This document shows positions 1,091 through 44,062 of a DNA stretch of 64,000 bases, piece after piece. The stretch comes from Clavelina lepadiformis (lineage: Eukaryota; Chordata; Ascidiacea; Aplousobranchia; Clavelinidae). Below the pieces are notes generated by a model. The model saw nothing but the letters and a program-made list of their open reading frames with translations. It searched no databases and was not told where the DNA came from. Position numbers and translations under genes: made by a program. Within the stretch, counting starts at the first letter, position 1; each line of letters starts with the position of its first letter. The stretch is from the NCBI RefSeq assembly GCF_947623445.1, contig NC_135246.1, positions 17,715,856 to 17,779,855 of the forward strand. The letters are read 5' to 3'.

Positions 1091-1689
1091 CCGATGAAAT
1101 AAACCTCGAAATGTAGAAACGTAATTAAAAATACCTTGTCGCTACTGCCATCACACAGTAAAACATCATGCTGGTTTCACCTTAATAAACATCTTAACAT
1201 TTTTTCTCTGTCGACTGAATCTCGCAACAAACCCTGCAACTTCAACTCTGCCTCATTTTCATCACGTTATTTTCCTCATCAGGAACTTTTAATTTAATCT
1301 AAAAATTTAATTTTAGCCAATATTGCTTAACTGAAAATCAAGGCAAGTTGCTGTTCCCACATTGTCCGCCTGTTAAAGCTGCCCTGTGCAGATCTTGTAA
1401 AAATTAGTTTACAGTACGAGAAGTTTCAGATTGGTAGATATCGAATCAGCTTTACACATAAAAAATCTCTTTTAAAACAGATTGTCTGATGCAGGGTTTG
1501 TTGTGCGCAAATTCTCCAACCAGAATCCAGATAACGGAATGTAACAAATTCAGACAAAACATCACTGATTTCCATTAAGTTAACTGTATGGCCAGAACAA
1601 TACTCAAACTACAAAAATAATAAACACCAAAATAAAACCAATATTTTACCGACCCCAACAAAGAAATAAACGCCAAAGCGCAGCAAAGC

Positions 1690-2008
1690 AACAGCGACAA
1701 AGAATCATCGCGAAAGCGCGCGCAGAGAGCTCAACAGCAATAAATCGAAACTTAAACCACGAAAGCCAAAACATTCAAGACACGTAAATGTGCAAAAGCC
1801 ACCAACAACGACTATGCAAAAAATACTACAATTAATACAAAACCCAACTCCAAAGAGCAAAGAACCGACTCGCGAGCCAAATCGCGAAACAAAAAACATT
1901 ACCCGCATACCTGACAGAACATCCATCAATCAGATAGTCACGTCTGATCATTCTGTTTTCTGCAGAGAGCTTTTGAAACCGAGTGTTACTCGATTATCTA
2001 CCTTATAG
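1690..2008 (+). other. A-rich open-frame segment, second type (all units)
   Basis: A lysine/threonine/proline-rich frame ends in TAG at 2006-2008 (equivalents end at 9986, 22004, 33462 and 42895). Just upstream, at about 1575-1640, the translation KLTVWPEQ resembles KVTEWTEQ of the other A-rich segment at about 7460, so the two look like old diverged copies of one sequence. Frames on both strands are open, as expected for A-rich DNA, so coding status is unproven. No domain is recognised. Confidence 0.3.
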
Positions 2009-2140
2009 TTAAGCCACATGCCTTCAGTAAATCATCATCAGTAAATCAGTAAACATACAATCAGTGCAAAAATATTCAACAAATTTATCACCACACCTAC
2101 GCAGAGAAATCTGCAAGCAAAAAGATATTATTAGTAAGTA

Positions 2141-2349
2141 GTTTTAACTAATATTTGTAAAGATTACATCAAATTAACCATAACGTTAATCAAACATGAA
2201 TGATACCAGAACGGTTTAACACTGCAAGCAATTTACGATTGCGTTACTTACAAATTTAATTATTTAATTTGGCTGCTTTAGTACACCGTTAAATATTTTG
2301 ATGAAGCTTGCAAATATCCGCGCGGTATCCGAGTATTAAGTTAAACGTA
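2141..2349 (+). repeat. 209-bp direct repeat, first member (copy 1)
   Basis: Nearly identical to 3191-3399, with one C/T difference seen, 1,050 bp downstream. The equivalent pairs are 10119-10327 with 11169-11377, 22137-22345 with 23187-23395, and 33595-33803 with 34645-34853. In copy 5 only the first member exists (43028-43236), so the second arose with the rearrangement that built the unit. Confidence 0.95.
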
Positions 2350-3190
2350 AAGCACTAATAATCCTTCGCTTATTAACTAACGTATTTCCCAACAAAACCT
2401 CAACTCGATCGTATTTAAATTCATTGCATAAATATATACCTGGTTAATACATTACTAAACTAAACCTAAACTTAAACCTGGTTTATAGATTGTAAGTTAC
2501 CTACATTATTCTTCACTTACTCTTAACTACCAAGTACCAACCAACCACTTTAACTACACAAGCCATATGAATGAATGAAGGCCGAATACTGGCAAATAAG
2601 GTTCGAAAATCGCGCGCAAATTCCAGAGCTGATTTCAGATACCCACAAAATTTGCTCCAAGGTGAATTCCAAGGGAAAACGTGTAAGTGCCAGCGTCTTG
2701 CTCGAAATTGTAATTATTGGCTAATTCATTGTTTAACAATGCCACGTCCTGATACAAAAAATGCATTATTCTTCAAGCATGCCCTAATAGGACTTTGAAT
2801 TTGTTATTTGTTTATTGTAGTACGGTGTTGTATGATACAAATTGCCATTGCCGGTTACTCAGCAATATTTTTTCCTTTAAACAATGAAGTTATGAAGCTA
2901 CGTATGTTTTCAAGTCTCTTCTAGATTTTGTTGCGCTCCCTGGACAAACAGGCCAGATGTGGGCCTGAAAATATTGAAAACATAACTATACCCTAAGAAG
3001 AAATTCAACAAAATTTTCAACAGAGTTTTGGCGCCAATGTCAATATGCATTATTTTTGTTGTTAAGGCACGTATCCGCTAGGTAGTAAAGTAGAGTCTCA
3101 TAAATAATACTTACTTAGCCTAGTCATTTGGTTTAAGTAACTGGTGTCAAATCGAATAAATTTATTTTCAAAACCTAATATTTTTAAAGT

Positions 3191-3399
3191 GTTTTAACTA
3201 ATATTTGTAAAGATTACATCAAATTAACCATAACGTTAATCAAACATGAATGATACCAGAACGGTTTAACACTGCAAGCAATTTACGATTGCGTTATTTA
3301 CAAATTTAATTATTTAATTTGGCTGCTTTAGTACACCGTTAAATATTTTGATGAAGCTTGCAAATATCCGCGCGGTATCCGAGTATTAAGTTAAACGTA
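3191..3399 (+). repeat. 209-bp direct repeat, second member (copy 1)
   Basis: The duplicate stops abruptly at 3399 and is followed at once by GTTAGCTAGTT and then a tRNA-Ser gene, whereas the first member continues into unrelated AT-rich DNA. It looks like a short templated copy laid down between two breakpoints. Confidence 0.95.
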
Positions 3400-3409
3400 G
3401 TTAGCTAGT

Positions 3410-3491
3410 TGTTGTCGGCAGGATTCGAACCAACGCAGGCAGAGCCCAACAGATTTCAAGTCTGTCGCCTTAACCACTCGGCCACGACAAC
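3410..3491 (-). tRNA. tRNA-Ser(TGA)-like, junction-damaged (copy 1, Ser-1)
   Basis: A type II tRNA with acceptor arm GTTGTCG/CGACAAC, anticodon loop CTTGAAA (anticodon TGA) and a long variable arm. Three features suggest impairment. The base after the acceptor stem reads A instead of the G seen in Ser-2 to Ser-4. The T stem has a T-T mismatch (GTTGG against CCTGC). No T-run terminator follows, because the gene abuts a GTTAGCTAGTT tract where its natural 3' flank should be. Possibly a pseudogene. Confidence 0.8.
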
Positions 3492-3567
3492 TGTGCTTAA
3501 TGTTCAATGCAAATAAATAAGATCCCACTTTTCTCGAATCTCTTATGAAAACATAATTTCAATCCCG

Positions 3568-3649
3568 CGTTGTCGGCAGGATTCGAACCTACGCAGGCAG
3601 AGCCCAACAGATTTCTAGTCTGTCGCCTTAACCACTCGGCCACGACAAC
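3568..3649 (-). tRNA. tRNA-Ser(AGA) (copy 1, Ser-2)
   Basis: Anticodon loop CTAGAAA (anticodon AGA), full acceptor, D, anticodon, variable and T arms, discriminator G, and good A and B boxes (GGTTCGAAT). A TTTT run lies about 20 bp past the 3' end on the minus strand. It is the second of four 158-bp tandem tRNA-Ser repeats. Confidence 0.92.
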
Positions 3650-3725
3650 TGTGCCTAATGTTCAATGCAAATAAATAAGATCCCACTTTTCTCGAATCTC
3701 TTATGAAAACATAATTTCAATTCCG

Positions 3726-3807
3726 CGTTATCGGCAGGGTTCGAACCTACGCGGGCAGAGCCCAACAGATTTCAAGTCTGTCGCCTTAACCACTCGGCCA
3801 CGACAAC
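3726..3807 (-). tRNA. tRNA-Ser(TGA) (copy 1, Ser-3)
   Basis: Anticodon loop CTTGAAA (TGA). One G-T wobble in the acceptor stem (GTTGTCG against CGATAAC); otherwise a complete cloverleaf with discriminator G and a perfect GGGC/GCCC variable-arm stem. Likely functional. Confidence 0.9.
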
Positions 3808-3883
3808 TGTGCCTAATGTTCAATGCAAATAAATAAGATCCCACTTTTCTCGAATCTCTTATGAAAACATAATTTCAATTCCG

Positions 3884-3965
3884 CGTTGTCGGCAGGATTC
3901 GAACCTACGCGGGCAGAGCCCAACAGATTTTAAATCTTTCGCCTTAACTACTCGGCCACGACAAC
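3884..3965 (-). pseudogene. tRNA-Ser-derived gene with TAA anticodon (copy 1, Ser-4)
   Basis: The body is tRNA-Ser, but the anticodon loop is TTTAAAA (anticodon TAA, which would read the Leu codon UUA). The anticodon stem has an A-G mismatch, and the D loop reads GAGTAGTT instead of GAGTGGTT, which breaks a conserved G and the A box. Best read as a tRNA pseudogene; a mis-decoding tRNA is the less likely alternative. Confidence 0.75.
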
Positions 3966-4590
3966 TTTGCTTAATGTGCAATGCAAATAGATAAAATCCC
4001 ACTTTTCTCGAATCGCTAGATTGATTCCACCATGTCGGTGTTTCCGGAATCTTCTCCTGATTTTCAAATCTGACAAGTTGATAATCTAGCGAGCGTAGAG
4101 AGATGTTCGCACTCAATGCGTCATATTAGAAAAAGTAAAAATTTTCCGGTCCAATGCGCATGTGACGTCGATGTGGAGTAGTTCGTCGTTGCTTTGACGA
4201 CAGCTGGTTCCAGGTCTAGGCTAAGTTGTAAATTTTGTGTGGGTTTGAATTTTTGGTTTTTTGGAGTATTTGTCATAAACTTTTAAGCTAAAAACTTGTT
4301 GTAAAGTGTAGGCAACTGTTATAGAAAACTGAGTACATGGATTTTGTCCAAATTAAGACTGTAGACAGACATAACCTAGGTCTCGTTGCAAGCCAAAATT
4401 CAGGGTAGGTTTATGATGTAGTTTTGCGTTGGTAGCTTCTTGATTTAATGTATTTTGCATTGAAAAGCCTATCTCTTTGAATTGGGACATGACCCCTTAA
4501 GAACAAGGACCACAGCTAAAATAGCTTTAAATGTAAAAAGACATGGAAATGAGACTCTAGTACTCTAGTAGTAGTTTAGTAGTAGTAGTA
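3966..4590. other. Spacer between tRNA-Ser cluster and tRNA-Leu pseudogene (each unit)
   Basis: Non-coding spacer. It contains an inverted repeat TCGCTAGATT (4011-4020) / AATCTAGCGA (4081-4090) with about 60 bp between the arms. At its right end a CTAGTA/GTAGTAGTAG-type simple repeat grades into the GTTAGCTA motif. Equivalent stretches follow in copies 2-4 (from 11944, 23962 and 35420). Confidence 0.6.
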
Positions 4591-4616
4591 GGTAGCTAGT
4601 TAGCTAGTTAGCTAGA
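4591..4616. repeat. Short GTTAGCTA seed tract at tRNA-Leu breakpoint (copy 1)
   Basis: About three units of the 8-bp motif (GTAGCTAGTTAGCTAG type) follow a GTAGTAGTAG run and stop at the truncated tRNA-Leu gene. Equivalent tracts lie near 12569-12594, 24587-24612 and 36045-36070. Unlike arrays A-D, this tract has the same short length in all copies. Confidence 0.85.
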
Positions 4617-4618
4617 TT

Positions 4619-4719
4619 CCACGTCTCCATTCGGAGACCAGAACACCCTAGAGCCGCACAAATCGGCTAACCCTCTGCTTGAGTCTGGCGCCTTAGACCA
4701 CTCGGCCATCCATCCTGAC
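4619..4719 (-). pseudogene. tRNA-Leu(CAA) pseudogene lacking T arm (copy 1)
   Basis: Matches the 5' two-thirds of the intact tRNA-Leu(CAA) at 44834-44951, including anticodon CAA and the intron. The T arm, B box and 3' acceptor strand are replaced by the short GTTAGCTA tract at 4591-4616. There is also a 4-bp duplication between the acceptor stem and the D arm (GGATGGATGG). Confidence 0.88.
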
Positions 4720-5001
4720 CTCGATGTTTTGTATGCATCTCAGTTCTTATAATACTTACCACAAAACCAGGAAAGGGCTTAATTTAGCACTAATATCACG
4801 GTTGTTTTTCTGCGTGGCTGTATAAAATTCACAGATGCATGCAACGATGTTTAATCGAGGATAAATACAACGAAGCAGGCAAAGTTGTTTCGTTCTAGTT
4901 TCACTTTATGGAAGACGTAGACGATGATGTTAACGGTATGCTCAATTTAGGATGAAACTATGTACAGTTAAGTGATAAGATTTTAAAAATATTAAGCCAA
5001 T

Positions 5002-5075
5002 CATCCCTGCCGGGACTCGAACCCGGAACATCTGGATTAGAAGTCCAGCGCGCTAATCCATTGCGCCACAGAGAC
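5002..5075 (-). tRNA. tRNA-Arg(TCT) (copy 1)
   Basis: 74-nt cloverleaf: acceptor GTCTCTG/CAGGGAT with a G-T pair at 1-72, D stem GCGC/GCGC, anticodon stem CTGGA/TCCAG with loop CTTCTAA (anticodon TCT), T stem CCGGG/CCCGG, discriminator G. No intron. A and B boxes are intact, so it is probably transcribable. Confidence 0.92.
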
Positions 5076-5264
5076 AAACTCATACCAACCGTTAACATTT
5101 TCACGCTTTAAAAAACAATCCAGCCTAGAAAGTCGGAAACAATTACTTGATGGAACCGTTTTTGAATTAAGACATAAGCTTCTCAATGTTCGATTTTACT
5201 ATCCGCTTCAATGCAATCCGACACAAAGTTAGCATATATGTGAAGTAAAACTTTCCAAAGCTAC

Positions 5265-5292
5265 TGTCAGAAGTGGGATTCGAACCCACGCC
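5265..5292 (-). pseudogene. tRNA-Leu 3' end fused to LINE fragment (each unit)
   Basis: The discriminator, 3' acceptor strand and T arm of tRNA-Leu(CAA) are present and then break off into the LINE fragment at 5293. The intact gene at 44834-44951 continues through the same bases into the variable arm. Equivalents are 13243-13270, 25261-25288 and 36719-36746. Confidence 0.85.
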
Positions 5293-5940
5293 ACGTGTTT
5301 AGGGTCCAAAGCGCGGCGGGCGAGGGAAATCATGGCTCCTTTGCGGCGTAGCTCAGCAGGTTGGATGCCTGCAAGGATTGGTAGGTAGTCCGTTGGAGTG
5401 GGACGCAGGCAACCAGTCACAATACGCAGCGCGTCGTTGATGGCGGTGTTAATATGGCGGGTATGGGAGCTACGACACCACACTGGTGCGCATTACTCGG
5501 CGGTGGAGTGGACAAGTGCCAGGGTGGCTGTGTTGAAGGTTTTTGAGCCGGCCCCCCAACCTGAGCCCGCCAGCCGCCTTAGGAGTGCGACGCGCGCAGA
5601 TAGTTTATTGCGCAGTAACTCCAAGTGTCGACGATACGTGAGTGCCCTGTCCAAGGTCACGCCGAGGTAGGTGGGCTCGGCTCTGTAGGGCAGGGTTTCC
5701 CAATCAATAATGAGGTTTATCTCACGCTGTGCTTCTTTGTTGTTGAGGTGGAAGACCGCCGACACTGTCTTTGCCTTGCTGAGCTGCAGCTTCCATTTCT
5801 GGAGATATGCTGTTAGTGTTTGCATGTCTTGGCTAAGATGCCTCTCCATCGACTGCCAGTCTCCGGCAGAATGCAGGAGTGCCAGGTCGTCTGCATAAGC
5901 ATACTTCCTGGAGGTGGTGCTGGGCAGATCGTAGGTGTAT
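5293..5940 (-). mobile_element. LINE reverse-transcriptase fragment (copy 1)
   Basis: Internal piece of a non-LTR retrotransposon ORF2. Reading leftwards, it begins at DLPSTTSRKYAYADD with the RT catalytic YADD (about 5886-5897), continues through the palm/thumb region (TYLGVTLDRALTY), then ALRIVTGCLRPTP and LPILAGIQPAELRRKGA, and stops after RRALDPKH. This resembles jockey/I/CR1-like elements in general; I cannot fix the clade. The frame is open apart from one TAA at 5493-5495, where a Tyr is expected. Both ends are cut, the right edge is approximate, and there is no 3' tail, so it is not an ordinary 5'-truncated insertion. It is clearly GC-richer than its surroundings. It sits between two tRNA-Leu fragments. 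Confidence 0.9.
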
Positions 5941-5944
5941 GTAA

Positions 5945-6020
5945 CGCAATAAGACACAAAGTTAGTATGGGATTTGAATCCAAGCCTCCATTTGATACCA
6001 AAACACCCTACAACCGCACA
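5945..6020 (-). pseudogene. Decayed tRNA-Leu 3' fragment abutting the satellite (each unit)
   Basis: Recognisable by its similarity to the intact tRNA-Leu(CAA): GGATTTGAATCC for the T loop, CCTCCATTTGATACC for the variable arm, and the intron-like CACCCTACAACCGCACA. It is more diverged than the other Leu copies and is cut inside the intron, where the 8-bp array begins. Equivalents end at 13998, 26016 and 37474. Confidence 0.75.
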
Positions 6021-7076
6021 GTTAGCTAGTTAGCTAGTCAGCTGGTCAGCTGGTCAGCTGGTCAGCTGGTCAGCTGGTCAGCTGGTCAGCTGGTCAGCTG
6101 GTCAGCTGGTCAGCTGGTCAGCTGGTCAGCTGGTCAGCTGGTCAGCTGGTCAGCTGGTCAGCTGGTCAGCTGGTCAGCTGGTCAGCTGGTCAGCTGGTCA
6201 GCTGGTCAGCTGGTCAGCTGGTCAGCTGGTCAGCTGGTCAGCTGGTCAGCTGGTCAGCTGGTCAGCTGGTCAGCTGGTCAGCTGGTCAGCTGGTCAGCTG
6301 GTCAGCTGGTCAGCTGGTCAGCTGGTCAGCTGGTCAGCTGGTCAGCTGGTCAGCTGGTCAGCTGGTCAGCTGGTCAGCTGGTCAGCTGGTCAGCTGGTCA
6401 GCTGGTCAGCTGGTCAGCTGGTCAGCTGGTCAGCTGGTCAGCTAGTCAGCTAGTCAGCTAGTCAGCTAGTCAGCTAGTCAGCTAGTCAGCTAGTCAGCTA
6501 GTCAGCTAGTCAGCTAGTCAGCTAGTCAGCTAGTCAGCTAGTCAGCTAGTCAGCTAGTCAGCTAGTCAGCTAGTCAGCTAGTCAGCTAGTCAGCTAGTCA
6601 GCTAGTCAGCTAGTCAGCTAGTCAGCTAGTCAGCTAGTCAGCTAGTCAGCTAGTCAGCTAGTCAGCTAGTCAGCTAGTCAGCTAGTCAGCTAGTCAGCTA
6701 GTCAGCTAGTCAGCTAGTCAGCTAGTCAGCTAGTCAGCTAGTCAGCTAGTCAGCTAGTCAGCTAGTCAGCTAGTCAGCTAGTCAGCTAGTCAGCTAGTCA
6801 GCTAGTCAGCTAGTCAGCTAGTCAGCTAGTCAGCTAGTCAGCTAGTCAGCTAGTCAGCTAGTCAGCTAGTCAGCTAGTCAGCTAGTCAGCTAGTCAGCTA
6901 GTCAGCTAGTCAGCTAGTCAGCTAGTCAGCTAGTCAGCTAGTCAGCTAGTCAGCTAGTCAGCTAGTCAGCTAGTCAGCTAGTCAGCTAGTCAGCTAGTCA
7001 GCTAGTCAGCTAGTCAGCTAGTCAGCTAGTCAGCTAGTCAGCTAGTCAGCTAGTCAGCTAGTCAGCTAGTCAGCTA
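6021..7076. repeat. 8-bp satellite array A (132 units, three blocks)
   Basis: Two units of GTTAGCTA, then 50 units of GTCAGCTG (6037-6436), then 80 units of GTCAGCTA (6437-7076). I see no impure unit inside a block. The blocks differ by single substitutions at positions 3 and 8 of the motif, and the boundaries are abrupt, which fits repeated block expansion rather than gradual drift. Confidence 0.95.
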
Positions 7077-7397
7077 GAAGTCCAAAAAATATTTACAACA
7101 TACCTTGCAAATATTAACGTCGTCGGAGAGTAGCCTATGCTTAACACGTCACCACTTGCGTCATCTGTAAAAGGTGAACTTTTGGCACCGTGACCATAAT
7201 GTTAAATAAAGTTTAAAACACACGCAACACAATCTTACTGAACTGAACAAAGCCGACGCAGATTTTTAAGCTTCTACACTGCTCACATATGCTATAGTTC
7301 TGGTTCAAATCTTGTCATGTTCAGTTCACAGCAAGAAATGTTCAGATTTGCAGATTCTAGATAAGCTTTGAGGGAACAAATTCTCGTGAAACACCAG

Positions 7398-7817
7398 ATG
7401 CCAGATATCTCGAGCTCAAATTTTGAACAGGATCCAGAGAAACTGAACATATTTATACTGAAGGTCACTGAATGGACAGAACAAAATAAATCAATAAACT
7501 CCAACAAGAAAAATCCAAAAAAAATCACTAATTCAGTGACTACTGATTCTGTACAAAATACTGTACAAACGCCAACGCGTAGAAATACAACAACGACCTA
7601 GACGCTAAAGCGCGCGCAGAGAGCAGCAGCAACAAAGCAGGGACAAAGGCTGACAACAAGAACATCGAAGTGTACAACAAAGGTCAAACAAATACCAAAT
7701 TCAGCAACAAGCGCGAACTGTGTTTCAGCATCAAACAAAATACAACTTGCAGCCCTGACCAAATCCTTATCGTTATTAAACAAGTCAGACAAACCGGCCC
7801 ACAAATATGAGCCTTAA
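7398..7817 (+). pseudogene. A-rich K/T/S-rich open frame, interrupted (copy 2)
   Basis: Same frame as the 139-aa ORF of copy 5 (40307-40726), but the lysine codon AAG is TAG at 7599-7601, leaving 67 codons after the first ATG. If the copy-5 ORF is a gene, this is a nonsense copy; if not, it is simply non-coding A-rich DNA. The stop is shared with copies 3 and 4, so it predates their multiplication. Confidence 0.2.
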
Positions 7818-10800
7818 GGCAAGCAATGAAGTTTCAATTCAACATAGACAAGCTGTTGTGCTTCAAACCAGTCACAAGATCAAAAATATCTTACACTTGG
7901 CCTTTTTACTTACGACACCAAACTGAACTCCGCATTCACCTGGGATCTTCTAAACTTTTCTACCTCAGCTATATCTGATATATCCCGGAGGTAACTGAAA
8001 TAAAATTACTTTCGCATTTGCATTGACGCCCCTTACCGACGACAAAAATAATAGAAAAAGAGAGAAGGAAGGAAGGAGAAAAATGCACAAAAATACAAAT
8101 TGTCATTGTCTTTCATTGCAGTAGATTCAATGAATTCTTAAAGTTATATTAGTCTGATAACATAATGTCCCTTTGGTATAAACCAATTCATCTGCATGCC
8201 AACATGGCGGCATATTACTGCTCCATACATGGTTTAACATTTCTACACCAGGGGCGCAATGTGCGATGGTAGTGCCGCCTAAACCGAAAACCTACGACTC
8301 ACGACCACAACTTGTGGTCGGAAGCTTTCTCTCTCTTCCGTGTTTATCTCATCGTTACTTCTCATCGTCCCTCGTTGGTTACCAGCACGCTGTTAACAGT
8401 CTAAATATCTGCCACTTAGCCTACTACTGCTTTCGATTATGGTCTTGTTTATAATCCTGAAAAACGAGTGTTCAGTCAATTATACTGTACGCTACTTACA
8501 CCATTAATCAATTAATATTATTATACTATTAATATCAACTGGCCTTAATCAATGACAGGAAACCAGCTAGGTCTTATGCTAGCGTAGAACGAAAACAAGT
8601 TCCTAACATTTGGCTTACCGGTAACGAGCTGGAAACACGTCTGGAAAGCTGGAAGCGGAAGCTGGAGCGATGGATTTGGATTGCATTCTCTTAAATTAAA
8701 TATGTTGGATTGCATGTTGACATTGTGTGCTAATAAATACAAGAGGTGCAATGAAAACCTGCCCAATTTCGTGACGTCTGATGTCTGTCATGATGTCTGA
8801 CGAATCATCTAAAAGGTTGGGCTTTTACCGTAGTTTTCTTGGCATGGCCGTCCTGAAAATTAAAAGCAGGTTGTCTTTTAAGGTTTGGAAATTAATAGAT
8901 TTCCAAAATTGTTGAATACGAAGCGGAAGAATTTCTTATTTTAAACAGTTAAATTATGATAAAAGATTAAGAAAAATGGATGCCAATAAAATAGATTTCA
9001 AATTACCAGGAGAGCAGCAGCTGAATGGGAGAGATGACAAGGAAAGGTGGAACCGTAACTGACGTCACCCGATGAAATAAACCTCGAAATGTAGAAACGT
9101 AATTAAAAATACCTTGTCGCTACTGCCATCACACAGTAAAACATCATGCTGGTTTCACCTTAATAAACATCTTAACATTTTTTCTCTGTCGACTGAATCT
9201 CGCAACAAACCCTGCAACTTCAACTCTGCCTCATTTTCATCACGTTATTTTCCTCATCAGGAACTTTTAATTTAATCTAAAAATTTAATTTTAGCCAATA
9301 TTGCTTAACTGAAAATCAAGGCAAGTTGCTGTTCCCACATTGTCCGCCTGTTAAAGCTGCCCTGTGAAGATCTTGTAATAATCAGTTTACAGTACGAGAA
9401 GTTTCAGATTGGTAGATATCGAATCAGCTTTACACATAAAAAATCTCTTTTAAAACAGATTGTCTGATGCAGGGTTTGTTGTGCGCAAATTCTCCAACCA
9501 GAATCCAGATAACGGAATGTAACAAATTCAGACAAAACATCACTGATTTCCATTAAGTTAACTGTATGGCCAGAACAATACTCAAACTACAAAAATAATA
9601 AACACCAAAATAAAACCAATATTTTACCGACCCCAACAAAGAAATAAACGCCAAAGCGCAGCAAAGCAACAGCGACAAAGAATCATCGCGAAAGCGCGCG
9701 CAGAGAGCTCAACAGCAATAAATCGAAACTTAAACCACGAAAGCCAAAACATTCAAGACACGTAAATGTGCAAAAGCCACCAACAACGACTATGCAAAAA
9801 ATACTACAACTAATACAAAACCCAACTCCAAAGAGCAAAGAACCGACTCGCGAGCCAAATCGCGAAACAAAAAACATTACCCGCATACCTGACAGAACAT
9901 CCATCAATCAGATAGTCACGTCTGATCATTCTGTTTTCTGCAGAGAGCTTTTGAAACCGAGTGTTACTCGATTATCTACCTTATAGTTAAGCCACATGCC
10001 TTCAGTAAATCATCATCAGTAAATCAGTAAACATACAATCAGTGCAAAAATATTCAACAAATTTATCACCACACCTACGCAGAGAAATCTGCAAGCAAAA
10101 AGATATTATTAGTAAGTAGTTTTAACTAATATTTGTAAAGATTACATCAAATTAACCATAACGTTAATCAAACATGAATGATACCAGAACGGTTTAACAC
10201 TGCAAGCAATTTACGATTGCGTTACTTACAAATTTAATTATTTAATTTGGCTGCTTTAGTACACCGTTAAATATTTTGATGAAGCTTGCAAATATCCGCG
10301 CGGTATCCGAGTATTAAGTTAAACGTAAAGCACTAATAATCCTTCGCTTATTAACTAACGTATTTCCCAACAAAACCTCAACTCGATCGTATTTAAATTC
10401 ATTGCATAAATATATACCTGGTTAATACATTACTAAACTAAACCTAAACTTAAACCTGGTTTATAGATTGTAAGTTACCTACATTATTCTTCACTTACTC
10501 TTAACTACCAAGTACCAACCAACCACTTTAACTACACAAGCCATATGAATGAATGAAGGCCGAATACTGGCAAATAAGGTTCGAAAATCGCGCGCAAATT
10601 CCAGAGCTGATTTCAGATACCCACAAAATTTGCTCCAAGGTGAATTCCAAGGGAAAACGTGTAAGTGCCAGCGTCTTGCTCGAAATTGTAATTATTGGCT
10701 AATTTATTGTTTAACAATGCCACGTCCTGATACAAAAAATGCATTATTCTTCAAGCATGCCCTAATAGGACTTTGAATTTGTTATTTGTTTATTGTAGTA

Positions 10801-11387
10801 CGGTGTTGTATGATACAAATTGCCATTGCCGGTTACTCAGCAATATTTTTTCCTTTAAACAATGAAGTTATGAAGCTACGTATGTTTTCAAGTCTCTTCT
10901 AGATTTTGTTGCGCTCCCTGGACAAACAGGCCAGATGTGGGCCTGAAAATATTGAAAACATAACTATACCCTAAGAAGAAATTCAACAAAATTTTCAACA
11001 GAGTTTTGGCGCCAATGTCAATATGCATTATTTTTGTTGTTAAGGCACGTATCCGCTAGGTAGTAAAGTAGAGTCTCATAAATAATACTTACTTAGCCTA
11101 GTCATTTGGTTTAAGTAACTGGTGTCAAATCGAATAAATTTATTTTCAAAACCTAATATTTTTAAAGTGTTTTAACTAATATTTGTAAAGATTACATCAA
11201 ATTAACCATAACGTTAATCAAACATGAATGATACCAGAACGGTTTAACACTGCAAGCAATTTACGATTGCGTTATTTACAAATTTAATTATTTAATTTGG
11301 CTGCTTTAGTACACCGTTAAATATTTTGATGAAGCTTGCAAATATCCGCGCGGTATCCGAGTATTAAGTTAAACGTAGTTAGCTAGT

Positions 11388-11469
11388 TGTTGTCGGCAGG
11401 ATTCGAACCAACGCAGGCAGAGCCCAACAGATTTCTAGTCTGTCGCCTTAACCACTCGGCCACGACAAC
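11388..11469 (-). tRNA. tRNA-Ser Ser-1 with switched anticodon AGA (copy 2)
   Basis: Same gene as 3410-3491 but with T instead of A at 11436 (plus strand), turning anticodon TGA into AGA. It keeps the discriminator A, the T-stem mismatch and the missing terminator of the Ser-1 series. Confidence 0.8.
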
Positions 11470-11545
11470 TGTGCTTAATGTTCAATGCAAATAAATAAGA
11501 TCCCACTTTTCTCGAATCTCTTATGAAAACATAATTTCAATCCCG

Positions 11546-34200: not shown

Positions 34201-34863
34201 TCCTGATACAAAAAATGCATTATTCTTCAAGCATGCCCTAATAGGACTTTGAATTTGTTATTTGTTTATTGTAGTACGGTGTTGTATGATACAAATTGCC
34301 ATTGCCGGTTACTCAGCAATATTTTTTCCTTTAAACAATGAAGTTATGAAGCTACGTATGTTTTCAAGTCTCTTCTAGATTTTGTTGCGCTCCCTGGACA
34401 AACAGGCCAGATGTGGGCCTGAAAATATTGAAAACATAACTATACCCTAAGAAGAAATTCAACAAAATTTTCAACAGAGTTTTGGCGCCAATGTCAATAT
34501 GCATTATTTTTGTTGTTAAGGCACGTATCCGCTAGGTAGTAAAGTAGAGTCTCATAAATAATACTTACTTAGCCTAGTCATTTGGTTTAAGTAACTGGTG
34601 TCAAATCGAATAAATTTATTTTCAAAACCTAATATTTTTAAAGTGTTTTAACTAATATTTGTAAAGATTACATCAAATTAACCATAACGTTAATCAAACA
34701 TGAATGATACCAGAACGGTTTAACACTGCAAGCAATTTACGATTGCGTTATTTACAAATTTAATTATTTAATTTGGCTGCTTTAGTACACCGTTAAATAT
34801 TTTGATGAAGCTTGCAAATATCCGCGCGGTATCCGAGTATTAAGTTAAACGTAGTTAGCTAGT

Positions 34864-34945
34864 TGTTGTCGGCAGGATTCGAACCAACGCAGGCAGAGCC
34901 CAACAGATTTCAAGTCTGTCGCCTTAACCACTCGGCCACGACAAC
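34864..34945 (-). tRNA. tRNA-Ser(TGA)-like, junction-damaged (copy 4, Ser-1)
   Basis: As 3410-3491, anticodon TGA, discriminator A. Confidence 0.8.
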
Positions 34946-35021
34946 TGTGCTTAATGTTCAATGCAAATAAATAAGATCCCACTTTTCTCGAATCTCTTAT
35001 GAAAACATAATTTCAATCCCG

Positions 35022-35103
35022 CGTTGTCGGCAGGATTCGAACCTACGCAGGCAGAGCCCAACAGATTTCTAGTCTGTCGCCTTAACCACTCGGCCACGAC
35101 AAC
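35022..35103 (-). tRNA. tRNA-Ser(AGA) (copy 4, Ser-2)
   Basis: Identical to 3568-3649. Confidence 0.92.
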
Positions 35104-35179
35104 TGTGCCTAATGTTCAATGCAAATAAATAAGATCCCACTTTTCTCGAATCTCTTATGAAAACATAATTTCAATTCCG

Positions 35180-35261
35180 CGTTATCGGCAGGGTTCGAAC
35201 CTACGCGGGCAGAGCCCAACAGATTTCAAGTCTGTCGCCTTAACCACTCGGCCACGACAAC
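35180..35261 (-). tRNA. tRNA-Ser(TGA) (copy 4, Ser-3)
   Basis: Identical to 3726-3807. Confidence 0.9.
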
Positions 35262-35337
35262 TGTGCCTAATGTTCAATGCAAATAAATAAGATCCCACTT
35301 TTCTCGAATCTCTTATGAAAACATAATTTCAATTCCG

Positions 35338-35419
35338 CGTTGTCGGCAGGATTCGAACCTACGCGGGCAGAGCCCAACAGATTTTAAATCTTTCGCCTTA
35401 ACTACTCGGCCACGACAAC
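35338..35419 (-). pseudogene. tRNA-Ser-derived pseudogene, TAA anticodon (copy 4, Ser-4)
   Basis: Identical to 3884-3965. Confidence 0.75.
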
Positions 35420-36072
35420 TTTGCTTAATGTGCAATGCAAATAGATAAAATCCCACTTTTCTCGAATCGCTAGATTGATTCCACCATGTCGGTGTTTCCG
35501 GAATCTTCTCCTGATTTTCAAATCTGACAAGTTGATAATCTAGCGAGCGTAGAGAGATGTTCGCACTCAATGCGTCATATTAGAAAAAGTAAAAATTTTC
35601 CGGTCCAATGCGCATGTGACGTCGATGTGGAGTAGTTCGTCGTTGCTTTGACGACAGCTGGTTCCAGGTCTAGGCTAAGTTGTAAATTTTGTGTGGGTTT
35701 GAATTTTTGGTTTTTTGGAGTATTTGTCATAAACTTTTAAGCTAAAAACTTGTTGTAAAGTGTAGGCAACTGTTATAGAAAACTGAGTACATGGATTTTG
35801 TCCAAATTAAGACTGTAGACAGACATAACCTAGGTCTCGTTGCAAGCCAAAATTCAGGGTAGGTTTATGATGTAGTTTTGCGTTGGTAGCTTCTTGATTT
35901 AATGTATTTTGCATTGAAAAGCCTATCTCTTTGAATTGGGACATGACCCCTTAAGAACAAGGACCACAGCTAAAATAGCTTTAAATGTAAAAAGACATGG
36001 AAATGAGACTCTAGTACTCTAGTAGTAGTTTAGTAGTAGTAGTAGGTAGCTAGTTAGCTAGTTAGCTAGATT

Positions 36073-36173
36073 CCACGTCTCCATTCGGAGACCAGAACAC
36101 CCTAGAGCCGCACAAATCGGCTAACCCTCTGCTTGAGTCTGGCGCCTTAGACCACTCGGCCATCCATCCTGAC
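36073..36173 (-). pseudogene. tRNA-Leu(CAA) pseudogene (copy 4)
   Basis: Identical to 4619-4719. Confidence 0.88.
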
Positions 36174-36455
36174 CTCGATGTTTTGTATGCATCTCAGTTC
36201 TTATAATACTTACCACAAAACCAGGAAAGGGCTTAATTTAGCACTAATATCACGGTTGTTTTTCTGCGTGGCTGTATAAAATTCACAGATGCATGCAACG
36301 ATGTTTAATCGAGGATAAATACAACGAAGCAGGCAAAGTTGTTTCGTTCTAGTTTCACTTTATGGAAGACGTAGACGATGATGTTAACGGTATGCTCAAT
36401 TTAGGATGAAACTATGTACAGTTAAGTGATAAGATTTTAAAAATATTAAGCCAAT

Positions 36456-36529
36456 CATCCCTGCCGGGACTCGAACCCGGAACATCTGGATTAGAAGTCC
36501 AGCGCGCTAATCCATTGCGCCACAGAGAC
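36456..36529 (-). tRNA. tRNA-Arg(TCT) (copy 4)
   Basis: Identical to 5002-5075. Confidence 0.92.
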
Positions 36530-36746
36530 AAACTCATACCAACCGTTAACATTTTCACGCTTTAAAAAACAATCCAGCCTAGAAAGTCGGAAACAATTAC
36601 TTGATGGAACCGTTTTTGAATTAAGACATAAGCTTCTCAATGTTCGATTTTACTATCCGCTTCAATGCAATCCGACACAAAGTTAGCATATATGTGAAGT
36701 AAAACTTTCCAAAGCTACTGTCAGAAGTGGGATTCGAACCCACGCC

Positions 36747-37394
36747 ACGTGTTTAGGGTCCAAAGCGCGGCGGGCGAGGGAAATCATGGCTCCTTTGCGG
36801 CGTAGCTCAGCAGGTTGGATGCCTGCAAGGATTGGTAGGTAGTCCGTTGGAGTGGGACGCAGGCAACCAGTCACAATACGCAGCGCGTCGTTGATGGCGG
36901 TGTTAATATGGCGGGTATGGGAGCTACGACACCACACTGGTGCGCATTACTCGGCGGTGGAGTGGACAAGTGCCAGGGTGGCTGTGTTGAAGGTTTTTGA
37001 GCCGGCCCCCCAACCTGAGCCCGCCAGCCGCCTTAGGAGTGCGACGCGCGCAGATAGTTTATTGCGCAGTAACTCCAAGTGTCGACGATACGTGAGTGCC
37101 CTGTCCAAGGTCACGCCGAGGTAGGTGGGCTCGGCTCTGTAGGGCAGGGTTTCCCAATCAATAATGAGGTTTATCTCACGCTGTGCTTCTTTGTTGTTGA
37201 GGTGGAAGACCGCCGACACTGTCTTTGCCTTGCTGAGCTGCAGCTTCCATTTCTGGAGATATGCTGTTAGTGTTTGCATGTCTTGGCTAAGATGCCTCTC
37301 CATCGACTGCCAGTCTCCGGCAGAATGCAGGAGTGCCAGGTCGTCTGCATAAGCATACTTCCTGGAGGTGGTGCTGGGCAGATCGTAGGTGTAT
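36747..37394 (-). mobile_element. LINE reverse-transcriptase fragment (copy 4)
   Basis: Identical in translation to 5293-5940, including the single in-frame TAA (36947-36949). Confidence 0.9.
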
Positions 37395-37474
37395 GTAACG
37401 CAATAAGACACAAAGTTAGTATGGGATTTGAATCCAAGCCTCCATTTGATACCAAAACACCCTACAACCGCACA

Positions 37475-39985
37475 GGTAGCTAGTTAGCTAGTTAGCTAGT
37501 TAGCTAGTTAGCTAGTTAGCTAGTTAGCTAGTTAGCTAGTTAGCTAGTTAGCTAGTTAGCTAGTTAGCTAGTTAGCTAGTTAGCTAGTTAGCTAGTTAGC
37601 TAGTTAGCTAGTTAGCTAGTTAGCTAGTTAGCTAGTTAGCTAGTTAGCTAGTTAGCTAGTTAGCTAGTTAGCTAGTTAGCTAGTTAGCTAGTTAGCTAGT
37701 TAGCTAGTTAGCTAGTTAGCTAGTTAGCTAGTTAGCTAGTTAGCTAGTTAGCTAGTTAGCTAGTTAGCTAGTTAGCTAGTTAGCTAGTTAGCTAGTTAGC
37801 TAGTTAGCTAGTTAGCTAGTTAGCTAGTTAGCTAGTTAGCTAGTTAGCTAGTTAGCTAGTTAGCTAGTTAGCTAGTTAGCTAGTTAGCTAGTTAGCTAGT
37901 TAGCTAGTTAGCTAGTTAGCTAGTTAGCTAGTTAGCTAGTTAGCTAGTTAGCTAGTTAGCTAGTTAGCTAGTTAGCTAGTTAGCTAGTTAGCTAGTTAGC
38001 TAGTTAGCTAGTTAGCTAGTTAGCTAGTTAGCTAGTTAGCTAGTTAGCTAGTTAGCTAGTTAGCTAGTTAGCTAGTTAGCTAGTTAGCTAGTTAGCTAGT
38101 TAGCTAGTTAGCTAGTTAGCTAGTTAGCTAGTTAGCTAGTTAGCTAGTTAGCTAGTTAGCTAGTTAGCTAGTTAGCTAGTTAGCTAGTTAGCTAGTTAGC
38201 TAGTTAGCTAGTTAGCTAGTTAGCTAGTTAGCTAGTTAGCTAGTTAGCTAGTGAGCTAGTGAGCTAGTGAGCTAGTGAGCTAGTGAGCTAGTGAGCTAGT
38301 GAGCTAGTGAGCTAGTGAGCTAGTGAGCTAGTGAGCTAGTGAGCTAGTGAGCTAGTGAGCTAGTGAGCTAGTGAGCTAGTGAGCTAGTGAGCTAGTGAGC
38401 TAGTGAGCTAGTGAGCTAGTGAGCTAGTGAGCTAGTGAGCTAGTGAGCTAGTGAGCTAGTGAGCTAGTGAGCTAGTGAGCTAGTGAGCTAGTGAGCTAGT
38501 GAGCTAGTGAGCTAGTGAGCTAGTGAGCTAGTGAGCTAGTGAGCTAGTGAGCTAGTGAGCTAGTGAGCTAGTGAGCTAGTGAGCTAGTGAGCTAGTGAGC
38601 TAGTGAGCTAGTGAGCTAGTGAGCTAGTGAGCTAGTGAGCTAGTGAGCTAGTGAGCTAGTGAGCTAGTGAGCTAGTGAGCTAGTGAGCTAGTGAGCTAGT
38701 GAGCTAGTGAGCTAGTGAGCTAGTTAGCTAGTTAGCTAGTTAGCTAGTTAGCTAGTTAGCTAGTTAGCTAGTTAGCTAGTTAGCTAGTTAGCTAGTTAGC
38801 TAGTTAGCTAGTTAGCTAGTTAGCTAGTTAGCTAGTTAGCTAGTTAGCTAGTTAGCTAGTTAGCTAGTTAGCTAGTTAGCTAGTTAGCTAGTTAGCTAGT
38901 TAGCTAGTTAGCTAGTTAGCTAGTTAGCTAGTTAGCTAGTTAGCTAGTTAGCTAGTTAGCTAGTTAGCTAGTTAGCTAGTTAGCTAGTTAGCTAGTTAGC
39001 TAGTTAGCTAGTTAGCTAGTTAGCTAGTTAGCTAGTTAGCTAGTTAGCTAGTTAGCTAGTTAGCTAGTTAGCTAGTTAGCTAGTTAGCTAGTTAGCTAGT
39101 TAGCTAGTTAGCTAGTTAGCTAGTTAGCTAGTTAGCTAGTTAGCTAGTTAGCTAGTTAGCTAGTTAGCTAGTTAGCTAGTTAGCTAGTTAGCTAGTTAGC
39201 TAGTTAGCTAGTTAGCTAGTTAGCTAGTTAGCTAGTTAGCTAGTTAGCTAGTTAGCTAGTTAGCTAGTTAGCTAGTTAGCTAGTTAGCTAGTTAGCTAGT
39301 TAGCTAGTTAGCTAGTTAGCTAGTTAGCTAGTTAGCTAGTTAGCTAGTTAGCTAGTTAGCTAGTTAGCTAGTTAGCTAGTTAGCTAGTTAGCTAGTTAGC
39401 TAGTTAGCTAGTTAGCTAGTTAGCTAGTTAGCTAGTTAGCTAGTTAGCTAGTTAGCTAGTTAGCTAGTTAGCTAGTTAGCTAGTTAGCTAGTTAGCTAGT
39501 TAGCTAGTTAGCTAGTTAGCTAGTTAGCTAGTTAGCTAGTTAGCTAGTTAGCTAGTTAGCTAGTTAGCCGGCTAGTTAGCTAGTTAGCCGGCTAGTTAGC
39601 TAGTTAGCCGGCTAGTTAGCTAGTTAGCTAGTTAGCCGGCTAGTCGGCTAGTCGGCTAGTCGGCTAGTCGGCTAGTTAGCTAGTTAGCTAGTTAGCCGGC
39701 TAGTCGGCTAGTCGGCTAGTCGGCTAGTCGGCTAGTCGGCTAGTCGGCTAGTTAGGCTAGTTAGGCTAGTTAGGCTAGTTAGGCTAGTTAGGCTAGTTAG
39801 GCTAGTTAGGCTAGTTAGGCTAGTTAGGCTAGTTAGGCTAGTTAGGCTAGTTAGGCTAGTTAGGCTAGTTGGCTAGTTGGCTAGTTGGCTAGTTAGGCTA
39901 GTTAGGCTAGTTAGGCTAGTTAGGCTAGTTGGCTAGTTAGGCTAGTTGGCTAGTTGGCTAGTTAGCTAGTTAGGCTAGTTAGCTA
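37475..39985. repeat. 8-bp satellite array D with variant blocks and degenerate right end
   Basis: Begins with GGTAGCTA, then GTTAGCTA units, an abrupt block of 59 GTGAGCTA units (38251-38722), a long return to GTTAGCTA, and from about 39563 a mixed tail. The tail has GCCGGCTA-type junctions, runs of GTCGGCTA, a run of the 9-mer GTTAGGCTA and some GTTGGCTA. Its total length is not a multiple of eight because of the 9-mers. Degeneracy at the outer edge is typical of satellites kept uniform in the centre by unequal exchange. Confidence 0.95.
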
Positions 39986-42900
39986 GAAGTCCAAAAAATA
40001 TTTACAACATACCTTGCAAATATTAACGTCGTCGGAGAGTAGCCTATGCTTAACACGTCACCACTTGCGTCATCTGTAAAAGGTGAACTTTTGGCACCGT
40101 GACCATAATGTTGAATAAAGTTTAAAACACACGCAACACAATCTTACTGAACTGAACAAAGCCGACGCAGATTTTTAAGCTTCTACACTGCTCACATATG
40201 CTATAGTTCTGGTTCAAATCTTGTCATGTTCAGTTCACAGCAAGAAATGTTCAGATTTGCAGATTCTAGATAAGCTTTGAGGGAACAAATTCTCGTGAAA
40301 CACCAGATGCCAGATATCTCGAGCTCAAATTTTGAACAGAATCCAGAGAAACTGAACATATTTATACTGAAGGTCACTGAATGGACAGAACAAAATAAAT
40401 CAATAAACTCCAACAAGAAAAATCCAAAAAAAATCACTAATTCAGTGACTACTGATTCTGTACAAAATACTGTACAAACGCCAACGCGTAGAAATACAAC
40501 AACGACCAAGACGCTAAAGCGCGCGCAGAGAGCAGCAGCAACAAAGCAGGGACAAAGGCTGACAACAAGAACATCGAAGTGTACAACAAAGGTCAAACAA
40601 ATACCAAATTCAGCAACAAGCGCGAACTGTGTTTCAGCATCAAACAAAATACAACTTGCAGCCCTGACCAAATCCTTATCGTTATTAAACAAGTCAGACA
40701 AACCGGCCCACAAATATGAGCCTTAAGGCAAGCAATGAAGTTTCAATTCAACATAGACAAGCTGTTGTGCTTCAAACCAGTCACAAGATCAAAAATATCT
40801 TACACTTGGCCTTTTTACTTACGACACCAAACTGAACTCCGCATTCACCTGGGATCTTCTAAACTTTTCTACCTCAGCTATATCTGATATATCGCGGAGG
40901 TAACTGAAATAAAATTACTTTCGCATTTGCATTGACGCCCCTTACCGACGACAAAAATAATAGAAAAAGAGAGAAGGAAGGAAGGAGAAAAATGCACAAA
41001 AATACAAATTGTCATTGTCTTTCATTGCAGTAGATTCAATGAATTCTTAAAGTTATATTAGTCTGATAACATAATGTCCCTTTGGTATAAACCAATTCAT
41101 CTGCATGCCAACATGGCGGCATATTACTGCTCCATACATGGTTTAACATTTCTACACCAGGGGCGCAATGTGCGATGGTAGTGCCGCCTAAACCGAAAAC
41201 CTACGACTCACGACCACAACTTGTGGTCGGAAGCTTTCTCTCTCTTCCGTGTTTATCTCATCGTTACTTCTCATCGTCCCTCGTTGGTTACCAGCACGCT
41301 GTTAACAGTCTAAATATCTGCCACTTAGCCTACTACTGCTTTCGATTATGGTCTTGTTTATAATCCTGAAAAACGAGTGTTCAGTCAATTATACTGTACG
41401 CTACTTACACCATTAATCAATTAATATTATTATACTATTAATATCAACTGGCCTTAATCAATGACAGGAAACCAGCTAGGTCTTATGCTAGCGTAGAACG
41501 AAAACAAGTTCCTAACATTTGGCTCACCGGTAACGAGCTGGAAACACGTCTGGAAAGCTGGAAGCGGAAGCTGGAGCGATGGATTTGGATTGCATTCTCT
41601 TAAATTAAATATGTTGGATTGCATGTTGACATTGTGTGCTAATAAATACAAGAGGTGCAATGAAAACCTGCCCAATTTCGTGACGTCTGATGTCTGTCAT
41701 GATGTCTGACGAATCATCTAAAAGGTTGGGCTTTTACCGTAGTTTTCTTGGCATGGCCGTCCTGAAAATTAAAAGCAGGTTGTCTTTTAAGGTTTGGAAA
41801 TTAATAGATTTCCAAAATTGTTGAATACGAAGCGGAAGAATTTCTTATTTTAAACAGTTAAATTATGATAAAAGATTAAGAAAAATGGATGCCAATAAAA
41901 TAGATTTCAAATTACCAGGAGAGCAGCAGCTGAATGGGAGAGATGACAAGGAAAGGTGGAACCGTAACTGACGTCACCCGATGAAATAAACCTCGAAATG
42001 TAGAAACGTAATTAAAAATACCTTGTCGCTACTGCCATCACACAGTAAAACATCATGCTGGTTTCACCTTAATAAACATCTTAACATTTTTTCTCTGTCG
42101 ACTGAATCTCGCAACAAACCCTGCAACTTCAACTCTGCCTCATTTTCATCACGTTATTTTCCTCATCAGGAACTTTTAATTTAATCTAAAAATTTAATTT
42201 TAGCCAATATTGCTTAACTGAAAATCAAGGCAAGTTGCTGTTCCCACATTGTCCGCCTGTTAAAGCTGCCCTGTGAAGATCTTGTAATAATCAGTTTACA
42301 GTACGAGAAGTTTCAGATTGGTAGATATCGAATCAGCTTTACACATAAAAAATCTCTTTTAAAACAGATTGTCTGATGCAGGGTTTGTTGTGCGCAAATT
42401 CTCCAACCAGAATCCAGATAACGGAATGTAACAAATTCAGACAAAACATCACTGATTTCCATTAAGTTAACTGTATGGCCAGAACAATACTCAAACTACA
42501 AAAATAATAAACACCAAAATAAAACCAATATTTTACCGACCCCAACAAAGAAATAAACGCCAAAGCGCAGCAAAGCAACAGCGACAAAGAATCATCGCGA
42601 AAGCGCGCGCAGAGAGCTCAACAGCAATAAATCGAAACTTAAACCACGAAAGCCAAAACATTCAAGACACGTAAATGTGCAAAAGCCACCAACAACGACT
42701 ATGCAAAAAATACTACAACTAATACAAAACCCAACTCCAAAGAGCAAAGAACCGACTCGCGAGCCAAATCGCGAAACAAAAAACATTACCCGCATACCTG
42801 ACAGAACATCCATCAATCAGATAGTCACGTCTGATCATTCTGTTTTCTGCAGAGAGCTTTTGAAACCGAGTGTTACTCGATTATCTACCTTATAGTTAAG

Positions 42901-44062
42901 CCACATGCCTTCAGTAAATCATCATCAGTAAATCAGTAAACATACAATCAGTGCAAAAATATTCAACAAATTTATCACCACACCTACGCAGAGAAATCTG
43001 CAAGCAAAAAGATATTATTAGTAAGTAGTTTTAACTAATATTTGTAAAGATTACATCAAATTAACCATAACGTTAATCAAACATGAATGATACCAGAACG
43101 GTTTAACACTGCAAGCAATTTACGATTGCGTTACTTACAAATTTAATTATTTAATTTGGCTGCTTTAGTACACCGTTAAATATTTTGATGAAGCTTGCAA
43201 ATATCCGCGCGGTATCCGAGTATTAAGTTAAACGTAAAGCACTAATAATCCTTCGCTTATTAACTAACGTATTTCCCAACAAAACCTCAACTCGATCGTA
43301 TTTAAATTCATTGCATAAATATATACCTGGTTAATACATTACTAAACTAAACCTAAACTTAAACCTGGTTTATAGATTGTAAGTTACCTACATTATTCTT
43401 CACTTACTCTTAACTACCAAGTACCAACCAACCACTTTAACTACACAAGCCATATGAATGAATGAAGGCCGAATACTGGCAAATAAGGTTCGAAAATCGC
43501 GCGCAAATTCCAGAGCTGATTTCAGATACCCACAAAATTTGCTCCAAGGTGAATTCCAAGGGAAAACGTGTAAGTGCCAGCGTCTTGCTCGAAATTGTAA
43601 TTATTGGCTAATTCATTGTTTAACAATGCCACGTCCTGATACAAAAAATGCATTATTCTTCAAGCATGCCCTAATAGGACTTTGAATTTGTTATTTGTTT
43701 ATTGTAGTACGGTGTTGTATGATACAAATTGCCATTGCCGGTTACTCAGCAATATTTTTTCCTTTAAACAATGAAGTTATGAAGCTACGTATGTTTTCAA
43801 GTCTCTTCTAGATTTTGTTGCGCTCCCTGGACAAACAGGCCAGATGTGGGCCTGAAAATATTGAAAACATAACTATACCCTAAGAAGAAATTCAACAAAA
43901 TTTTCAACAGAGTTTTGGCGCCAAGGTCAATATGCATTATTTTTGTTGTTAAGGCACGTATCCGCTAGGTAGTAAAGTAGAGTCTCATAAATAATACTTA
44001 CTTAGCCTAGTCATTTGGTTTAAGTAACTGGTGTCAAATCGAATCAATTTATTTTCGAAACC
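39986..44062 (+). repeat. Amplicon unit copy 5 (right-truncated, edge copy)
   Basis: Aligns with copy 4 at an offset of 9,433 up to 44062 and then departs. Where copies 1-4 continue into the second 209-bp direct repeat and the tRNA-Ser cluster, copy 5 runs into different DNA with a tRNA-Leu/Arg array. It has private bases at 40113, 40340, 40508, 40894, 41525 and 43925. At 40508-40510 it keeps a lysine codon where copies 2-4 have TAG. It probably represents the ancestral right edge. Confidence 0.92.
40307..40726 (+). CDS. Hypothetical 139-aa Lys/Thr/Ser-rich ORF, uninterrupted only in copy 5
   Basis: Starts at the first ATG after an upstream in-frame TAA and ends at a TAA at 40724-40726. The N-terminal third is mixed in composition with two tryptophan/glutamate-containing segments (for example KVTEWTEQ). 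The rest is basic and rich in Thr, Ser, Ala and Gln. No signal peptide, membrane segment or known domain is visible. It could be one exon of a spliced gene. The opposite strand is also open for 170 codons but is rich in Phe, Val, Cys and Leu, as expected for the complement of A-rich codons, so I treat that as the shadow. Coding status is uncertain; the only support is that it is open here and closed by a shared stop in copies 2-4. Confidence 0.25.
   Translation: MPDISSSNFEQNPEKLNIFILKVTEWTEQNKSINSNKKNPKKITNSVTTDSVQNTVQTPTRRNTTTTKTLKRAQRAAATKQGQRLTTRTSKCTTKVKQIPNSATSANCVSASNKIQLAALTKSLSLLNKSDKPAHKYEP

Follow-up and report, generated by a model that had tools for sequence, protein, structure and literature searches.

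Tandem repeats of a kilobase-sized unit bearing several tRNA genes are known from human 1q23.3, where a 7.3-kb unit with five tRNA genes recurs at 98% identity and contains a partial long interspersed nuclear element (LINE) and simple repeats (PMC4041453). In Entamoeba histolytica and E. dispar, tandem tRNA units carry repeats, mostly of 7–12 bp, between genes; the units are mostly uniform within an isolate and the repeat numbers are variable (PMC2652664). Almost all tRNA genes of E. histolytica are arrayed in this way, and ordinary micro- and minisatellites seem to be absent from the rest of its genome (PMC2652664). A Ser–Tyr–Tyr cluster of Arabidopsis likewise consists of tandem tRNA genes and has grown by tandem duplication (PMC12308677), and high tRNA gene numbers are recorded for zebrafish, stickleback and Nematostella, with large clusters that hold most tRNA genes of the two fishes and with clustered genes mostly parallel (PMC2888827). 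The subject of this analysis is a window of 64,000 nucleotides on chromosome 7 of Clavelina lepadiformis (contig C7, positions 17715856–17779855), which contains a tandem repeat of a 6,920-bp unit with genes for serine (Ser) and arginine (Arg) tRNAs and remnants of leucine (Leu) tRNA genes, its copies separated by arrays of the type (AGTTAGCT)n.

At this locus a kilobase unit is repeated head-to-tail at least three times, at 98% identity or above and with several tRNA genes per unit, as in the human 1q23.3 macrosatellite. A preliminary description of the window had called the structure no standard class of repeat, which is too strong in view of the human (PMC4041453) and Entamoeba (PMC2652664) precedents; the class is not new, the two together cover its main features, and the kilobase 8-bp arrays at broken tRNA genes are the variant. 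In the human repeat the simple sequences (GAAA), (TC) and (CA) lie within the unit, whereas Clavelina units are separated by 1–5 kb of 8-bp array; variation between 9 and 43 units and CTCF binding are features of the human repeat, which carries other tRNAs (PMC4041453), and no homology is claimed. As in Entamoeba, repeats within the 7–12-bp range are tied to tandem tRNA units, here at the unit borders, and this 8-mer is confined to tRNA arrays. Unlike those of Entamoeba, the Clavelina arrays can be as long as 5 kb and in many cases begin within a broken tRNA gene, and the short repeats do not lie between intact tRNA genes: the long arrays join a Leu intron, the Ser T-arm/acceptor border, an Arg 3′ end or no tRNA, so that the locus works like an Entamoeba array and is not filed as one. 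Kilobase 8-bp arrays are not mentioned in the available part of the Arabidopsis account (PMC12308677), nor is a unit-plus-satellite structure in that of the zebrafish, stickleback and Nematostella survey (PMC2888827). No report of the Clavelina repeat was found in the literature searched, subscription journals and preprints being beyond its scope. The locus is probably a tRNA-gene macrosatellite homogenized by unequal exchange or gene conversion, with spacers that are expanded 8-bp arrays, born in a tRNA cluster and spread by duplication.

Head-to-tail in positions 1091–44062 of the assembled sequence are three whole and two end-truncated copies of the unit. The five 6.9-kb units first proposed are thus tandem and near-identical, with the reservation that two are partial. 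The copies align without indels at offsets of 7,978, 12,018, 11,458 and 9,433, as had been noted, and 15 columns vary across the whole unit alignment (6,920 bp, all copies), close to the dozen or so single-base differences counted before. Given this length and identity, chance is ruled out as the cause of the similarity. Private differences in copies 1–5 number 4, 3, 0, 0 and 8; the two end copies hold 12 of the 15 in 9,005 of 29,765 bp (binomial p 1e-4), leaving three (3, 0, 0) in the 20,760 bp of the inner copies, an edge effect expected of unequal exchange or conversion. Copies 3 and 4 are identical over all 6,920 bp, while the four arrays differ in length and in variant blocks.

The four inter-unit arrays measure 1,058, 5,098, 4,538 and 2,513 bp, in agreement with the 1–5 kb given earlier. 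A macrosatellite that bears tRNA genes and encloses a satellite of variable length is real in the assembly. Divergence between the arrays is greater than that between the unit copies. Two of the arrays are perfect runs of AGTTAGCT and two are built of blocks of variants, a pattern such as local expansion would leave.

Relatives of the unit lie on chromosomes 2, 6 and 8 of the genome searched (209.06 Mb, 95 contigs, one primary assembly). Two units lie on chromosome 2 (22.402–22.417 Mb), each preceded by an array (56 and 341 copies); their identity is 99.73% over 6,218 bp, part of which is array. Single units with arrays are found on chromosome 6 (18.42 Mb; 99.3% to chromosome 2 over 5,383 bp that include some array), where an inner stretch at about unit positions 669–1765 is missing, and on chromosome 8 (1.32 Mb; 97.9% over 5,495 bp). 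Among the sequences directly to the left of the array on chromosomes 2, 6 and 8, together with the left boundary of the chromosome 7 tandem, no two match at E 1e-5. The left flank on chromosome 2 and the right flank on chromosome 6 do share a 223-bp match (98.7%) at a distance from the arrays, and several flanks are matched by that of chromosome 8, as expected from its tRNA genes.

That an assembly error has inflated the number of tandem copies, by stringing together haplotypic copies whose arrays differ in length, is quite unlikely. Such an error would be favoured by the identity of copies 3 and 4 and by a stretch of ~25 kb, bounded by the last difference of copy 2 (12332) and the beginning of array 4 (37474), over which the copies are separable by array length alone and which exceeds the shear size of the DNA, 12–20 kb on average (PMC10884593). 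Against it, at least four separate copies are marked, by the unlike sequences of arrays 1 and 4 and by the differences private to copies 1, 2 and 5; the same tandem arrangement occurs on chromosome 2; and the assembly (210.1 Mb, 102 scaffolds, hifiasm) rests on 117-fold high-fidelity (HiFi) reads with a quality value (QV) of 67.4 (PMC10884593). The number of middle units may nevertheless be wrong by some, because the indistinct stretch is longer than the sheared fragments, and the assembly leaves it unpinned.

Each whole unit, as well as truncated copy 1, contains five tRNA genes called by ARAGORN, all on the minus strand: Ser, Ser(AGA), Ser(TGA), ‘Leu(TAA)’ and Arg(TCT). None was called in truncated copy 5. 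The window as a whole has 22 Rfam tRNA matches, two of them in the right flank, and 16 Ser-bodied and five Arg(TCT) genes. Three of the five predicted genes per unit, Ser-AGA, Ser-TGA and Arg-TCT, are judged sound from their sequence. The G that follows the acceptor stem of tRNA-Ser matters for seryl-tRNA synthetase (SerRS); the first tRNA-Ser has A at this position, as against G in the other Ser genes, and no TTTT in the 60 bp downstream, whereas in the other four tRNA genes TTTT starts 15 bp downstream (11 bp for Arg). A single-base difference at unit position 4359 (11436 in copy 2) falls in its anticodon, which is TGA in copies 1, 3 and 4 and AGA in copy 2. The gene labelled Leu(TAA) has a Ser body with a UAA anticodon and is the same in four copies (3883–3965, 11861–11943, 23879–23961 and 35337–35419, minus strand). 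If made and charged by SerRS, this tRNA would decode UUA Leu codons as Ser; its anticodon stem, read by inspection, contains a mismatch, which suggests a pseudogene.

The unit also contains remnants of a tRNA-Leu(CAA) gene with intron. The first is broken in the T-arm, where it meets an 8-mer stub; the second is a 3′ end adjacent to a LINE fragment; the third is a 3′ half, in the intron of which each large array starts. The CAA reading of the Leu genes was made by inspection, the ARAGORN labels for them being variable. Both ends of the LINE fragment are internal to the LINE, given that four pairwise comparisons among the copies L021–L024 share 2.5–3.2 kb; the piece sits in a Leu remnant, as repair filler would. 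It is whole at all five loci compared (L008 and L021 are the same in place, so four are distinct), and its match to RVT_1 is weak (E 9.4e-05; 22.6 bits, under the Pfam cut-off of 29.6).

In the genome-wide search, four exact AGTTAGCT in a row served as probe and the same pattern read backwards as control. The probe gave 2,020 forward and 299 reverse matches, the control none, and all 2,319 matches fall in Ser, Arg or Leu tRNA clusters, this 8-mer being the one short repeat that the search covered. Forward matches are distributed over the window (1,393), C2:22.40 Mb (391), C8:0.617–0.620 Mb (126) and C6:19.716 Mb (110), and reverse matches over C7:18.717 Mb (179), C6:18.42 Mb (114) and C1:24.98 Mb (6). 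Inclusion of the AGTCAGCT variant or of shorter arrays adds C2:2.687 Mb and C8:1.321 Mb to these seven regions, and Ser, Arg or Leu tRNA genes are present in all nine. A search for an end-of-array pattern returned three sites only and is too strict to list arrays.

Across the clusters, six kinds of junction between a tRNA gene and the 8-mer were read (Table 1). The Arg 3′-end junctions at C7:18.717 and C8:0.620 Mb have paralogous flanks and were counted as one. On the sense strand of the tRNA, the repeat reads AGCTAACT at each of the six kinds (p 0.03 if independent). This single orientation is no more than suggestive, as clustered tRNA genes are mostly co-directional and the loci are paralogous. 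Adjoining a 182-copy 8-bp array is a tRNA-Arg (locus L031, 671–759) with an internal 13-bp tandem duplication (TTAGCGCGCTGGA).

Table 1. Features of the tandem repeat and its right flank, by position in the window, and kinds of tRNA/8-mer junction, by contig (C, chromosome) and Mb.
Feature	Position	Strand	Remarks
Unit copy 1	1091–6019	+	left-truncated, unit positions 1992–6920; first 1,991 bp absent
8-bp array 1	6020–7077	+	AGTTAGCT x2, AGTCAGCT x1, then GGTCAGCT x50, then AGTCAGCT x79
Unit copy 2	7078–13997	+	whole, 6,920 bp
Stub AGTTAGCTAGTT at tRNA-Ser 3′ end	11377–11388	+	last T is complement of the gene's final A
First tRNA-Ser of copy 2	11388–11469	-	anticodon AGA; abuts 12-bp stub of 8-bp repeat
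tRNA-Ser(AGA)	11545–11627	-	ARAGORN, copy 2
tRNA-Ser(TGA)	11703–11785	-	ARAGORN, copy 2
Ser-bodied tRNA with TAA anticodon	11861–11943	-	labelled Leu by ARAGORN, copy 2
8-bp repeat stub	12568–12593	+	joined to T-arm of tRNA-Leu(CAA) remnant
tRNA-Leu(CAA) remnant	12594–12697	-	intron present, 3′ end absent
tRNA-Arg(TCT)	12979–13054	-	ARAGORN, copy 2
LINE (reverse transcriptase) internal fragment	13273–13920	-	648 bp; beside tRNA-Leu 3′ remnant
tRNA-Leu(CAA) 3′ half and intron end	13946–13997	-	array 2 begins within intron
8-bp array 2	13998–19095	+	AGTTAGCT x637, perfect
Unit copy 3	19096–26015	+	whole, 6,920 bp; identical to copy 4
8-bp array 3	26016–30553	+	AGTTAGCT x567, perfect
Unit copy 4	30554–37473	+	whole, 6,920 bp
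8-bp array 4	37474–39986	+	TTAGCTAG blocks (96, 105), TGAGCTAG block (59); mixed end with 9-mers TTAGGCTAG
Unit copy 5	39987–44062	+	right-truncated, unit positions 1–4076; without tRNA genes
tRNA-Arg(TCT), right flank	44572–44647	-	ARAGORN
tRNA-Leu(CAA) with intron, right flank	44834–44951	-	no visible break; ARAGORN label Arg-ccg, CAA by inspection
Junction, Leu(CAA) intron	C7, C2, C6; few bases apart on C1		long array
Junction, Leu T-arm	window		stub
Junction, Arg(TCT) anticodon arm	C2:2.687, C7:18.715		stub
Junction, Arg 3′ end	C7:18.7157, C8:0.620		long array
Junction, Ser 3′ end	window		stub
Junction, Ser T-arm/acceptor border	C6:19.716		long array

We propose that the 8-mer would have originated in an ancestral cluster of Ser, Arg and Leu(CAA) tRNA genes, become linked to tRNA genes at several of their breakpoints, and been carried to other chromosomes with duplicated pieces of the cluster. 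The arrays would then have grown by slippage and local exchange, faster than point mutation of the units. Breaks in tRNA genes with filler, in the form of 8-mer stubs and the LINE piece, would fit error-prone repair at stalled replication forks. The sequence itself shows the tandem with its near-identical copies, the surplus of differences at its ends, the joining of arrays to broken tRNA genes, the restriction of perfect 8-mer arrays to tRNA clusters and the related units on three other chromosomes; the order of events, growth by slippage, breakage through tRNA genes acting as fork barriers and the only partial activity of the tRNA genes are what we infer.

Several observations weigh against this account. 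The arrays at C2:22402102 and C8:1321189 touch no tRNA sequence on either side, their nearest called tRNA genes being 3,874 and 1,046 bp away, and the long arrays adjoin non-tRNA sequence on one side. Three of the six junctions (Leu T-arm, Arg anticodon arm and Ser 3′ end) are stubs of at most about three repeats, and, the clusters being paralogous, the independence of the six is not proven. Nor is there strong support for hairpin-driven slippage: as a single strand the 8-bp repeat folds no better than shuffled sequences in one direction (z −0.42; 70 of 200 shuffles fold as well) and modestly better in the other (z −2.05; 4 of 200). The basis is, moreover, one primary assembly, that is, one copy number and one set of array lengths.

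Certain mobile elements, such as the TRE elements of Dictyostelium, target tRNA genes. An origin of the 8-bp array from an element of this kind, as its tail or footprint and with the units as passengers, is very improbable here, even though every located array lies in a tRNA cluster and AGCTAACT stands on the tRNA sense strand at the six junction types. The non-tRNA side of the arrays differs between loci, outside the paralogous units (chromosomes 2, 6, 7 and 8) and the pair C7:18.717/C8:0.617 Mb, and no common element was found to abut the arrays outside paralogous copies. The sole LINE piece found was rejected as a tRNA-specific mobile element that built the units, being internal to longer dispersed copies; at the four other copies examined (L021–L024, 5-kb stretches) no tRNA was called by ARAGORN.

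Hardly to be expected, too, is that the repeat is selected for, either as a reservoir of Ser and Arg tRNAs or because its tRNA genes form a chromatin barrier. The three whole-looking genes per unit, with TTTT from 11 or 15 bp downstream, and the barrier activity discussed for human and mouse tRNA repeats (PMC4041453) would suit such a role. The broken Leu(CAA) pieces, the first Ser gene, which lacks both a nearby terminator and the G that usually follows the acceptor stem, and the hundreds of Ser matches elsewhere in the genome speak against it, as does a tandem Arabidopsis tRNA cluster that is silent in most tissues (PMC12308677).

The idea that copy number would alter tRNA-Ser and tRNA-Arg dosage, also raised in the preliminary description, is weakened by genome-wide counts. 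The tRNA-Ser query has at least 336 matches (E <= 0.001), compared with 16 Ser-bodied genes in the window, and the Arg(TCT) query at least 40 (40 scored of 167 candidates), compared with five; both are lower bounds in which genes, fragments and pseudogenes are pooled. As the genome has many tandem tRNA clusters besides this one, among them C1:24.98–25.03, C2:23.285–23.375 and C9:4.94–5.17 Mb, any effect on dosage should be small, and it was judged minor and not taken as the main point. An origin of the 8-mer as a telomere repeat has no support: of three chromosome starts, the one readable in its first 200 bp (C1) does not open with the 8-mer, and the other two open with N.

Spacing in these other clusters is often ~1,180 bp at C9:4936555–5170352, with ~663-bp Arg/Leu units on C1 and ~156-bp Ser units at C2:23.285–23.375. 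Another cluster, at C2:22414500–22424499 (L011), has series of tRNA-Ser genes, labelled CGA and GGA, at ~159-bp spacing, together with a perfect 28-bp satellite of ~1.1 kb. In eukaryotes, tRNA-Ser with a GGA anticodon is unusual. Within a Ser cluster at C9:14.53 Mb (L018, 3983–4065), an 83-nt tRNA called Ala(tgc) is Ser-like with a changed anticodon. In the window itself, an open frame at 48355–48726 (plus strand) matches the arginase family (Pfam E 1.4e-10) and is probably an exon of a right-flank gene, and a dispersed repeat at 60157–60472 recurs, at 97%, in the sequence that flanks the C8:0.617-Mb array on its left (L033, 1714–2007).

For Clavelina, the tRNA-dosage aspect looks minor. tRNA genes are weak points for replication, and a tentative extension of the macrosatellite account, unlikely as a whole, would have a single 8-bp satellite growing only at tRNA breaks: damage at genes transcribed by RNA polymerase III would seed or capture the 8-mer, which would expand to kilobases, its ends serving as joints for the copying of clusters between chromosomes. 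If this were true, the 8-bp satellite would drive the spread of tRNA genes. The satellite is found at broken tRNA genes in several sizes, from stubs of 2–3 copies through tens to hundreds and up to 637, and such a size series in one high-quality genome would allow a test, in a chordate, of how tRNA genes, satellite birth and segmental duplication are linked.

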